Part shown: positions 3,667-40,154 of the stretch, piece after piece
Layout: each line of letters opens with the position of its first letter
Numbering within the stretch: the first letter of the stretch is position 1
Assembly: GCF_000875775.1 (NCBI RefSeq)
Contig: NZ_CP010868.1
Location: 1,499,707-1,563,706 of the forward strand
Direction: 5' to 3'
Length of the DNA stretch: 64,000 bases
Origin: Nitrosopumilus piranensis
GTDB taxonomy: Archaea; Thermoproteota; Nitrososphaeria; Nitrososphaerales; Nitrosopumilaceae
Notes under the pieces: generated by a model
The model's database searches: none
Told to the model about the DNA's origin: nothing
What the model saw: the letters and a program-made list of their open reading frames with translations, nothing else
Translations under genes and position numbers: made by a program

Positions 3667-3756
3667 TTATTTCCAATAGTCATTGTCAAAATGCAGAGTG
3701 ATGATTAGGTCAACTGAATCAAATGTAGAGATATGACCTGGGGTATCTGACTGCAT
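3667..3756 (-). CDS. Possible micro-ORF of 29 codons, divergent from the CxxC micro-protein
   Basis: An ATG-initiated frame encoding MQSDTPGHISTFDSVDLI and ending in HFDNDYWK. Its start lies about 29 bases from the AT-rich segment ATTAATATC (minus strand, near 3785), so it would be leaderless. The acidic/aromatic composition is protein-like, but such a short frame could occur by chance. It is listed because of the promoter spacing and the palindrome it shares with the gene at 3813. Confidence 0.35.
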   Translation of the reverse strand: MQSDTPGHISTFDSVDLIITLHFDNDYWK

Positions 3757-3779
3757 AATTGGTTACGTTGTCATTACCT

Positions 3780-3812
3780 TGATATTAATAGTACGGTACC
3801 ATACCGTACTAT
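3780..3812. promoter_or_regulatory. Bidirectional TATA element with a perfect 11-bp palindromic operator
   Basis: GATATTAATA at 3781-3790 is centred about 27 bases before the ATG at 3813 and about 29 bases before the opposite ATG at 3756. Overlapping its right side, ATAGTACGGTA (3788-3798) and TACCGTACTAT (3802-3812) form a perfect inverted repeat around a 3-base centre. The repeat ends exactly at the ATG of the plus-strand micro-gene and would cover its transcription start, the usual place for a repressor site. Confidence 0.6.
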
Positions 3813-3920
3813 ATGATTCAATGTGAATATTGTACAAGAGGTTTTATCGAGACAGCAAACGGACTGGCCGAAAAGACCTTTCATGAGTTACTACACGAAC
3901 CAGAAGTTGTAAACAAGTAA
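3813..3920 (+). CDS. CxxC micro-protein, 35 residues
   Basis: A micro-ORF starting MIQCEYCTRGF, followed by a polar helix (NGLAEKTFHELLHEP), 35 residues in all. One CxxC pair near the start and His residues downstream (FHELLH) suggest a metal site or half of a zinc knuckle. The ATG directly abuts a perfect palindrome and is correctly spaced from a TATA element, so a leaderless, possibly autoregulated gene is likely. The function is unknown. Confidence 0.6.
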   Translation: MIQCEYCTRGFIETANGLAEKTFHELLHEPEVVNK

Positions 3921-3981: not shown

Positions 3982-5499
3982 ATGGCTGCAAAAACTACAA
4001 AGAAAAAGACCCCAAGCAAGACAAAAAAAACTGTAAAAAGAGAACCAAGTCCATCTGTTTTACTAAAAAAAGTAGCAACAGTCTCAGACACCAACAAAGC
4101 ATTACAAAAAGAGATCAAAGCAATGTCAAAAATTTTTGGTGAAAACCAAAAAGTTCTAGTGTCCATGAAAGGAATGATTGATTCTCTAACGACAGCACTA
4201 GAACATATCCAGAAACAATCAAAGCAGATCAACATTATTGAAGATGACACACAAAAGCTATATGCAGGATTGAATCAAGTTAGGACACAATCTAATCTGG
4301 TAAACAAAATTAACAATCAAACTGCAAAATTGCAAGAAGAGATTAACAGAATTACAGAATTACAAAAATCAACAAAAACTCAAGAAATTACTCAGCAAGT
4401 AGAAGAGAGTATGAACTCCATTAGAAATAACTCTCAAATGATAATCAAGATTGCACAAAGAATCGACGAGGTAAGAGATGATCTTAGAAAAGTATCAGGA
4501 AAGACTGATTCATTTTTAGAAGTTGGTGCAGAAATTGATAAACTAAAAAACAACATTGAAGAGATTTCAGGAAAAACACAAAAGCTTGAAACAGGCGCTC
4601 AAATTATTGAAAGTCTAAAACAAGAGCTCTCAAAAATTACTGAAGGAGTATCAGATAATTCAAACCTAAATTCAGAACTAGATGCAATCAAAGTAACAAT
4701 TGATGCAATTTCAGCAAAGGCATCAAAGATTGACTCTCTAGGCGGAGTTATCGAAGGTCTAAAGCAACAATTTGAAACAGTTTCTGCCAAGGCCAGCTCA
4801 GCAGACAATGTAAGTCTAGAATCAATTAAAGAGTTAACAGGCAAGATTGACAAGATTGAGACAGAGATTGGAACCCTGTCCCATAGAGCAGACTCTACTG
4901 CATTTGTAGGTGAAGGCCTCAAATCAGTACAAGAGGATCTCTCAGATTTCAAGCAAAACGTCTTTGATAAGACAAACAGCATTGAGCAAAAAATCTCATC
5001 TGCATCAGAGATGCTAAAAAGACAAGATGCATCTACTATAGAATTTCACAAAAAGACTGAAAAATTGTTTGAAGAGATGCAATCAGTTAGAAATGTTACA
5101 AGTAAGGCCTCAGATGATTCCTCAAAGGAGATGATGGCATTGTTGAAGCTATCAGAGTATCAATCAAATATCAGAATGAATGCAGAATCAAAGTATGGGG
5201 ATGTAAAGGATCTTGAAAAGATGGCAGCCCAAACTGCAGACATTGTAAATCTGTTTGACAGAATTTCAATAGAGTCAGGTGAAAAGATTCCCCTACCACA
5301 TGAAGTCAGACAATGGGCAGTAAGTAAAATCCTAGATTGTGCAGATAAGTGGGAGATTCGATTCAGTGACGTTTATTCAATTTTGACAAATGCCATTGGA
5401 CGTGACTTGTTAAAAGAAGCAGTTAGAGTTCAACAGATTAGAGATATTTACGGAATCAGAGCAGTTGATGAGATTAGAAAGGATCTAAATATTTCTTAG
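3982..5499 (+). CDS. Long coiled-coil protein with C-terminal globular domain, 505 residues
   Basis: The N terminus is very basic (MAAKTTKKKTPSKTKKT). Residues about 25-390 are nearly unbroken heptad-type helix rich in K/E/Q/S/I, with repeating 'I.E.I..K...L' phrasing. Residues about 395-505 form a distinct globular tail (LPHEVRQWAVSKILDCADKW, then IRDIYGIRAVDEIRKDLNIS). The architecture resembles chromosome-organising, scaffold or tethering proteins, but no ATPase motif is present and no family was identified. The basic head could contact DNA or membrane. It converges with the glycosyltransferase gene, overlapping it by 4 bases. Confidence 0.8.
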   Translation: MAAKTTKKKTPSKTKKTVKREPSPSVLLKKVATVSDTNKALQKEIKAMSKIFGENQKVLVSMKGMIDSLTTALEHIQKQSKQINIIEDDTQKLYAGLNQVRTQSNLVNKINNQTAKLQEEINRITELQKSTKTQEITQQVEESMNSIRNNSQMIIKIAQRIDEVRDDLRKVSGKTDSFLEVGAEIDKLKNNIEEISGKTQKLETGAQIIESLKQELSKITEGVSDNSNLNSELDAIKVTIDAISAKASKIDSLGGVIEGLKQQFETVSAKASSADNVSLESIKELTGKIDKIETEIGTLSHRADSTAFVGEGLKSVQEDLSDFKQNVFDKTNSIEQKISSASEMLKRQDASTIEFHKKTEKLFEEMQSVRNVTSKASDDSSKEMMALLKLSEYQSNIRMNAESKYGDVKDLEKMAAQTADIVNLFDRISIESGEKIPLPHEVRQWAVSKILDCADKWEIRFSDVYSILTNAIGRDLLKEAVRVQQIRDIYGIRAVDEIRKDLNIS

Positions 5500-7568
5500 A
5501 TTCCAGATTCGTCTACTTGTTTGAGTTGCTCTTTCTTTCTTTTTAGTGCTGCAAAGATTCCTAACAGTGCAGCAATCCAGACTGTTGCAAATACCATATT
5601 TGCAACACTGACATACATGTATGGGGTTGCATCCATGATGTTAGTTTTGATAAGAAGAGCTCTATCACTTACATCCATCATTCCAGTATGATATGCAGAA
5701 CTATCCTTTGGAACTGTAGATATTTTATCAACGCTTGCAAGCATTGTGTCAAGATTATCTTGAATTCTAACAAAGTTTGTAGATTCAGTTGAAAATAGCC
5801 AAACAGGGTTTTTAGATATTAGTTCACCATCAGCATTAGTTTTTTCAGGGATTAGATCATTTGCCATAATAGTATCCATGTCTGCCTGAATTGCCACCAA
5901 ATGAGTGCGAATTGCAGCAGGATCAGATGAACCAATAATTCCATCAAGGTTGCCCCTTATTCTATCAAGTGGATAAATGTCAACACTATACCCGTAGATT
6001 GCCATGAATCCACCAAAAACAATTATTCCAACAATTCCAACCATGGAAAGTTTGTAAACTCTATTTGCCATCTTCTCTTTCTTGGTCATTACACGGGAAA
6101 CACTTGATTTATTTCTTTTAAATCGAGTGTGTGACAGGCTCAGGTAAGCAATATAGAAGAATCCAATTGTTTGCAGGGCAATAATTGGAACAAAGATAGG
6201 GTTGTTTGAAAATATTGAAACAAAGATGCCCAACATACCATAAATTCCAAAGAAGATCTCAAGAAGAGTCACTTGTGAGAAAGGCAAGTTGTATGCGTTG
6301 CTTTTCCAATCATCTTTTGTCTTAAGGACGCCATATTTTGGAGTTCTAAGAAATTCGTTCTTTTTGCCAAGTACTGCATCAAATACTGCAACAGTATTGT
6401 TCACAGACATTCCAGCATTATAGACTAGCAATGTAGGAAGTATCTTTGCCTTTGATTTCCACGACTTGTGATACATGCTTTGTATAATCATAATGTATGC
6501 ACCAGGACCCATTGCAAGATATGTTGCAATTGTTATTGCAGGAAGAAAGCTAATCACATAGAGATTAACTTGTCCTGCTAACAAAATAGGCAGTGCCAAA
6601 AACTGAATCAACATTAGTGGATAAACAACATGACGAGTAAGTTGGATGAATGCCTGAATCTTGGCTTCAATTGCAACTTTACGTTTTATTGCAATGTCAG
6701 TAAGTAATTTTATTGCACACTGTATTGAGCCCTTTGCCCAACGGAATTGCTGCCTTTTTGCAGCATTCATTTGAACTGGCAACTCTGCATCAACTACAAT
6801 GTCTGGCAGAAAGACACATTTCCATCCCTTCATTTGGGCACGATAACTAAGATCAAGGTCTTCAACCAATGTAGCAGTATGCCATCCTCCAGCATCTTCT
6901 ATACAATCACGTTTCCAGATTCCAGCAGTACCATTAAAGTTCATGAAAAGATGAGAGTTGCTTTTTGCCTTTTGTTCAATTAGAAAATGAAAGTCAAGAC
7001 TCAGGGCTTGTGCTTGAGTTATTGCAGAATAATTTTCATTGACATGGCCCCATCTACATTGGACTAGCCCAATTTTTGAGTTTGAAAAGTGAGGAATGGC
7101 ACGTTTTAGAAACCATGTTGGTGGAATAAAGTCAGCATCAAAGATTGCTACAAGTTCAGTGTCAGTTGACTTCATTGCATGCTTTAGTGCACCTGCCTTG
7201 TATCCGTCTCGGGTTCCACGTCTTACGTGTTCAATTTGAAATCCTTTCTTTTTGTAGTCATCAACAGTGTCTGCTAAAAGTTCCACAGTATCATCATCTG
7301 AATCATCTAATACCATTATCCTCATTTTGTCTTGAGGATAATCCAGATTACATACAGAGTCAACTAGTCTTTTTGCAACATATTTTTCATTGTATATTGG
7401 CAATTGTATTGTAATTGAAGGGGTACCCAACTCGGCAGTCTGCAGTAAATCCTTTCTCTTTCTTGAGAGAAACGCCAGATAGTAAAAATTGCAAGTGTAT
7501 GCAGTAATAATAATAGCAGATATGATAAATAGATCAAAAACCAATTGCGTGAAAGGGTTGAATGCCAT
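5496..7568 (-). CDS. Membrane-embedded family 2 glycosyltransferase (cellulose-synthase-like)
   Basis: Processive-type GT2 enzyme that would polymerise or transfer sugars across the cytoplasmic membrane. One N-terminal membrane helix (about 10-35) precedes a cytosolic GT-A domain with LDDSDDD (88-93), FDADF (144-146), VEDLDLSYR (235-240) and QQFRW (273-277), the D,D,D,Q..RW signature of cellulose/hyaluronan synthases. Four or five membrane helices follow to residue about 540. A roughly 110-residue extracytoplasmic insert rich in D/N/S then precedes a last helix and a basic tail. The insert before the last helix is unusual. The product is likely a surface polysaccharide or lipid-linked glycan. 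It is a single gene on its strand. Confidence 0.85.
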   Translation of the reverse strand: MAFNPFTQLVFDLFIISAIIITAYTCNFYYLAFLSRKRKDLLQTAELGTPSITIQLPIYNEKYVAKRLVDSVCNLDYPQDKMRIMVLDDSDDDTVELLADTVDDYKKKGFQIEHVRRGTRDGYKAGALKHAMKSTDTELVAIFDADFIPPTWFLKRAIPHFSNSKIGLVQCRWGHVNENYSAITQAQALSLDFHFLIEQKAKSNSHLFMNFNGTAGIWKRDCIEDAGGWHTATLVEDLDLSYRAQMKGWKCVFLPDIVVDAELPVQMNAAKRQQFRWAKGSIQCAIKLLTDIAIKRKVAIEAKIQAFIQLTRHVVYPLMLIQFLALPILLAGQVNLYVISFLPAITIATYLAMGPGAYIMIIQSMYHKSWKSKAKILPTLLVYNAGMSVNNTVAVFDAVLGKKNEFLRTPKYGVLKTKDDWKSNAYNLPFSQVTLLEIFFGIYGMLGIFVSIFSNNPIFVPIIALQTIGFFYIAYLSLSHTRFKRNKSSVSRVMTKKEKMANRVYKLSMVGIVGIIVFGGFMAIYGYSVDIYPLDRIRGNLDGIIGSSDPAAIRTHLVAIQADMDTIMANDLIPEKTNADGELISKNPVWLFSTESTNFVRIQDNLDTMLASVDKISTVPKDSSAYHTGMMDVSDRALLIKTNIMDATPYMYVSVANMVFATVWIAALLGIFAALKRKKEQLKQVDESGI

Positions 7569-40053: not shown

Positions 40054-40154
40054 TGGCGCCGGGAGGGAGATTTGAACTCCCGTTCCCTTGCGAGAACGCG
40101 CTTTATGGTTAACAATTTCCAGGCGCGCGCCCTACCAGGCTAGGCGACCCCGGC
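40054..40154 (-). tRNA. tRNA-Ser (anticodon GGA) with a 14-base intron
   Basis: Acceptor GCCGGGG pairs with TCCCGGC (one G-U), discriminator G, and CCA is encoded (40056-40054). The D arm is GCC/GGC, the anticodon stem CGCGC/GCGCG, the long variable arm GTTC...GAAC (the serine hallmark), and the T arm GGGAG-TTCAAAT-CTCCC. The region between the anticodon-stem strands is 21 bases instead of 7; removing 14 bases (40116-40103) after position 37 leaves loop CTGGAAA with anticodon GGA. The canonical 37/38 intron site suits cleavage by EndA. Confidence 0.93.

Follow-up and report, generated by a model that had tools for sequence, protein, structure and literature searches.

Features of the locus

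The window, by which we mean the whole analysed stretch of 64,000 nt from Nitrosopumilus piranensis, carries a micro-ORF with a palindrome in front of it, in the following setting.

3691..3756, plus strand: structured C/D-box-like RNA, identified by covariation; a neighbour of the operator and not part of it
3761..3778, no strand: imperfect inverted repeat GGTTAC-N6-ATTACC (family form GGTNA-N8-TNACC), from alignments of relatives
3783..3790, plus strand: TATA-like TATTAATA of the micro-ORF promoter, kept in position and sequence in relatives
3788..3812, no strand: perfect dyad and proposed operator, with 11-bp arms and a 3-nt spacer, kept in about 30 same-clade genomes
3792..3808, no strand: operator core TACGGTA-CCA-TACCGTA (family consensus TACNGTA-N3-TACNGTA; 117 distinct sites, four in the own genome)
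3813..3920, plus strand: 35-aa micro-protein MIQCEYCTRGFIETANGLAEKTFHELLHEPEVVNK with a CxxC...HxxxH pattern, with orthologs and a pN/pS of 0.10

The two arms, ATAGTACGGTA and TACCGTACTAT, match at 11 of 11 pairs around a CCA spacer. The palindrome that the initial annotation had reported at 3780-3812 is therefore real, although its start had been placed 8 bases too far left (true start, 3788). Its last base (3812) directly precedes the ATG at 3813. TATTAATA (3783-3790) lies 23-30 nt 5′ of this plus-strand ATG and overlaps the dyad, as had been claimed; from the spacing it appears to be the TATA element of the micro-ORF, whose transcript is probably leaderless.

That a 25-base dyad would be very unlikely by chance was an overstatement. 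Counting arms of 11 or more with loops of 0-8, a first-order Markov model predicts 0.24 dyads in every 64 kb. A further 11-bp dyad with a 3-nt spacer, no less perfect, is present in the window at 5583-5607, and a palindrome alone is therefore weak evidence. (The second dyad sits within a 690-aa frame, 5496-7568 on the minus strand, and is probably due to chance.) The significance of the operator dyad lies in its conservation rather than its rarity, and it is conservation that rules out a chance palindrome. Aligned relatives retain both dyad and TATA element, with nearly all changes falling mid-arm or in the spacer. What is conserved is TACNGTA, twice, while the central G/C is free to vary; the GC-rich core pointed out earlier is thus a minor feature, and in a GC-rich relative (G021) the dyad is retained within GC-rich surroundings. 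The repeat at 3761-3778, which ends 4 nt 5′ of the TATA element, is conserved as well and may be the site of a second regulator or activator.

The CxxC ORF expected after the dyad is present at 3813-3920. Its orthologs occur in 31 of the 61 genomes searched (79-100% identical) and in deeper relatives (65-85%), and C4, C7, H24 and H28 are invariant across 14 distinct versions of the protein. These orthologs and invariant residues, together with the pN/pS of 0.10 and variation concentrated at third codon positions (10/9/30 variable columns by position), mark the micro-ORF as a genuine protein-coding gene. Its Cys/His motif is zinc-finger-like and metal binding is putative; against Pfam there was no zinc-finger family match, only a sub-threshold one to Fer2_2, and a single-sequence structure model gave only a helix and was uninformative.

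The RNA upstream has a terminal stem (ATGCAG/CTGCAT) and an inner stem (AGGTCA/TGACCT). In an alignment of eight chosen versions, compensatory changes support 9 of 11 pairs, a result equalled by 0 of 500 shuffles and by no slid control. With a C-like box (GTGATGA at 3698-3704), a D-like box (CTGA at 3747-3750) and the covarying terminal stem it has the box and stem features of a C/D box sRNA, although it does not match Rfam at gathering score. The 12-nt complement of the D-guide has no other occurrence in the own genome with at most one mismatch, and no guide target was found at that length. Since its two would-be guide regions pair with each other, it is possible that the RNA is not a conventional methylation guide. 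Elsewhere in the window, Rfam finds a 98-nt tRNA, probably intron-containing, that ARAGORN missed (40057-40154, minus strand).

The initial annotation had also read the locus as a divergent promoter, in which one TATA element serves the plus-strand micro-ORF and a minus-strand micro-ORF from 3756. In about half of 30 relatives the latter frame is cut short by a stop after 11-16 codons, 9 of the 30 carry another triplet in place of its ATG, and the frame runs antisense to the covarying plus-strand RNA (3691-3756); we reject it as a gene, and the divergent promoter with it. Three relatives (L332-L334), in which the upstream neighbour is a different one, have the micro-gene with TATA element, dyad and GGTNA-N8-TNACC repeat but no such RNA, which assigns the operator to the micro-gene rather than the RNA. 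The tightly controlled switch proposed for the CxxC micro-protein was to be judged by the conservation of the dyad and of both micro-ORFs: dyad, spacing and plus-strand micro-ORF are conserved in about 30 genomes, in support of an operator, and only the minus-strand micro-ORF is not kept.

Operator sites across genomes

A genome search for further copies, suggested in the initial annotation as a way to define a regulon, succeeded. The exact core TACNGTA-N3-TACNGTA has four matches in the 1.71-Mb own genome and none in reversed controls. It occurs 2-6 times per genome in 35 of the 37 same-clade genomes (those labelled own or same genus, the own genome included), for a total of 137 sites in the 37 against 4 reversed-control matches, while 24 genomes of other families yield 1 match in total against 2 in controls. 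The 117 distinct sites collected have the consensus TACCGTA-Y-N-R-TACGGTA, in which the search pattern itself dictates TAC and GTA. When one mismatch is allowed, totals do not exceed those of reversed controls, and we therefore claim no weaker targets. Each of the four matches in the own genome falls at a promoter.

G000 C1:1503498: exact core at the micro-ORF
G000 C1:1326685: exact core at the own promoter of a ~115-aa winged-helix protein
G000 C1:1612236: exact core at radA, abutting the ATG
G000 C1:1047553: exact core between trpE and a divergent gene for a 62-aa CxxC...CxxH protein
Own genome, just downstream of C1:1326701: the ~115-aa winged-helix protein, MMRARLTYVPLEVAEQF...

RadA and TrpE were identified by NCBIfam/Pfam family models. 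Placement of the core is characteristic of each target. Its end lies 4 nt from the start codon in 36 of 39 micro-ORF promoters and at -1 nt in most promoters of the winged-helix gene (67 of 87) and of radA (14 of 18); at nearly all genes of the latter two kinds it overlaps the ATG or ends 2 nt before it. At the 62-aa protein it stands +34 nt from the start, just 5′ of the TATA element, in 11 of 14 promoters. Deeper relatives show the same target gene set. Some genomes add a 128-aa protein (G007, G036, G004 and G028) and further ones 37-38-aa TCYRCG proteins. In the GC-rich genome G021 the core also stands 2 nt before the start codons of three proteins that are TFB-like by eye and by a weak model match (L076, L077 and L149), possibly an additional branch of the regulon.

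An extra site in G043 was rejected as a promoter operator, as it falls inside a 402-aa frame. The dyad is absent from radA promoters of other families. Viral operators were rejected too: in viral DNA, 39 stretches match one half-palindrome pattern, none of them a few bases before an ATG, and the other pattern has a single match, in GC-rich unrelated DNA. Taken together, the sites suggest that the dyad is a conserved repressor-type site common to about four genes in ammonia-oxidizing ocean archaea; we found no description of a radA regulon with this dyad in the literature searched.

Candidate regulator

Among the core targets, no gene other than the winged-helix gene resembles one for a transcription factor. 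Of 61 genomes, 31 encode its protein, and these all belong to the motif-bearing clade. The exact core stands in the gene's own promoter at 75 of 80 named loci; four more have a 4-nt spacer. (In groundwater relatives, L349, L350 and L309, the 4-nt spacer occurs in the regulator's operator and the other sites have 3 nt.) Carrier loci are named Nitrosopumilus, Nitrosarchaeum, Nitrosopelagicus and Marine Group I, so the regulator-bearing clade extends beyond a single named genus. The regulator's promoter contains up to three phased half-sites (TAAGGTA-N3-TACCGTA-N3-TACGGTA). One genome (G030, 91% complete) has radA and lacks the regulator, the micro-ORF and all sites; in two others (G028, 90% complete, and G014, 56%) sites are present and the regulator was not detected. 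The winged-helix protein probably binds the dyad.

The structure model (pLDDT 86.6) predicts a single winged-helix domain that has short strands at its N-terminus and a helix at its C-terminus. By Foldseek and VIA-align it belongs with AspA-like and PadR-MarR proteins, an assignment that covers fold only and not family, and its best fold matches are of the Sso10a-2, AspA, RosR and PadR types. The closest solved folds are AspA (pNOB8) and Sso10a (Foldseek E about 1e-3, VIA Z 11-12.5), with sequence identity of just 16-20%. The protein is not a member of NCBIfam NF053610 (Sso10a), scoring 16.8 bits against a cut-off of 60, and a Pfam search of it found no LexA-type DNA-binding domain and no self-cleaving peptidase domain. 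Many invariant residues of its alignment fall in the putative recognition helix, IRMKKSFLNYLHL.

Two side observations concern the surroundings of this gene and its homologs. Proteins that are PII-like by eye are encoded upstream of the regulator gene on both strands (L078:198-530, plus; 761-1342, minus). A viral contig (IMGVR_UViG_3300009376_001036, L265:2486-2872) encodes a 128-aa homolog that is 36-39% identical and keeps IRMKKSFLNYLHL; about 1.3 kb upstream of it is a gene (phrog_7339) that resembles a DNA-repair exonuclease.

Proposed mechanism and alternatives

We think it likely that an autoregulated winged-helix repressor governs a small radA regulon in the Nitrosopumilus clade, with the dyad as its operator. 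The protein would bind TACNGTA-N3-TACNGTA as a dimer or higher oligomer and, once bound, would block TBP/TFB/polymerase at a site between the TATA element and a leaderless start; a block of initiation is proposed because the site fills the TATA-to-start space at three of the four targets. Repression would cover the regulator's own gene, the 35-aa micro-protein, radA and the trpE/62-aa protein intergenic promoter. Against repression at the 62-aa protein is the location of the site upstream of the TATA element, and activation is possible there. Some signal would then relieve repression, for which DNA damage or replication stress is our favoured guess because radA is a core member. Induction of the regulon by DNA damage is plausible, although the core set includes just one DNA-repair gene, which counts against a DNA-repair reading.

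The main rival to DNA damage retains the same operator and repressor and makes the signal metal (zinc) or redox, with the small Cys/His proteins acting as metal buffers or sensors and radA as one of several stress genes. It owes this position to the Cys/His-rich character of the small regulon proteins, with paired Cys/His in the micro-protein (CEYC..HELLH), the 62-aa protein (CYVC..CDVH) and the 37-38-aa TCYRCG.. proteins; the regulator fold also resembles, among others, that of haloarchaeal RosR, which is linked to oxidative stress. The regulator alignment, however, has a single near-invariant Cys and no metal- or thiol-binding motif, and the own-genome regulon holds no transporter or metal enzyme, and we regard a metal or redox signal as rather unlikely. 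A tie to growth or nitrogen status instead of stress would fit the two PII-like genes (by eye) that flank the regulator gene in the own genome, and the site shared by trpE, but is improbable in our judgement, given that the exact core is at no nitrogen-assimilation gene in that genome.

Two further alternatives concern what recognizes the dyad. A different transcription factor might bind it, with the winged-helix gene a mere target: a site at a gene's own promoter is no proof of autoregulation, and sites persist in the two incomplete genomes without a detected regulator (G028 and G014). We consider this unlikely, since no other core target looks like a transcription factor, gene and motif have matching distributions, and up to three phased half-sites stand at the gene's promoter, an arrangement often found at self-controlled genes. 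As RNA, in the 5′ leader of the micro-ORF, the perfect arms could also pair into a hairpin of 11 bp capped by a 3-nt loop. Among nine distinct versions there is no compensatory double change, which points to a protein-bound DNA site rather than a hairpin; the same pairing is reached by 207 of 500 shuffles, and 3 of the 9 have lost the pairing at 8-18, the one inner pair that varies freely. Moreover, at the 62-aa protein the core lies upstream of the TATA element, and at radA it directly adjoins the start codon, leaving no common leader structure. A hairpin is accordingly very hard to credit.

Comparison with known systems

LexA is a repressor with a DNA-binding domain and a self-cleaving peptidase domain, and the bacterial SOS regulon includes the RecA gene. 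The arrangement here is similar in having an autoregulated repressor (as we infer), a palindromic operator over the promoter and a RecA-family recombinase gene; the core abuts the ATGs of both radA and the regulator gene, which places recombinase and inferred repressor under the same operator. It differs in that the candidate is a ~115-aa winged helix without a peptidase domain and the gene set is tiny.

In Halobacterium, radA is damage-inducible and a UV-B motif, TTTCACTTTCA, is present at radA and a few other genes, with UV induction measured in that archaeon (PMC2556686). This motif, located upstream of the TATA element, is 11 bp long and includes an internal repeat; its binding factor was not identified in that paper (PMC2556686). 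Both cases have a shared archaeal promoter motif at radA and few other genes, but the sequence and the gene set differ, and the conserved element here, TACNGTA-N3-TACNGTA, is a palindrome between TATA element and start rather than TTTCACTTTCA upstream of it. The DNA-damage response of Sulfolobales, as outlined in two reports, involves an AAA+ Orc1 paralogue, Orc1-2, and a short hexanucleotide motif (PMC9738581, PMC5817253). On that outline it too is an archaeal promoter-motif regulon, tied there to DNA damage, and differs in its AAA+ regulator from the winged-helix candidate here. DNA repair genes were not increased in UV arrays of Sulfolobus (PMC2246294).

Implications

In the literature searched we found neither a regulator of radA or recombination repair in this clade nor data on its induction by DNA damage. 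A tentative, SOS-like extension of the proposal is that a non-LexA, autoregulated winged-helix repressor, relieved by damage or replication stress, raises RadA together with Cys/His micro-proteins that aid repair or feed back. Were this so, the virus-encoded homolog (L265), which shares the putative recognition helix, would be a viral hijacker of the switch. The regulon would give the widespread 35-aa Cys/His micro-protein its first functional setting. Ammonia-oxidizing archaea are among the most abundant ocean microbes, and a near-invariant palindrome at four genes, radA included, would make a damage response in them open to direct tests of binding and expression.
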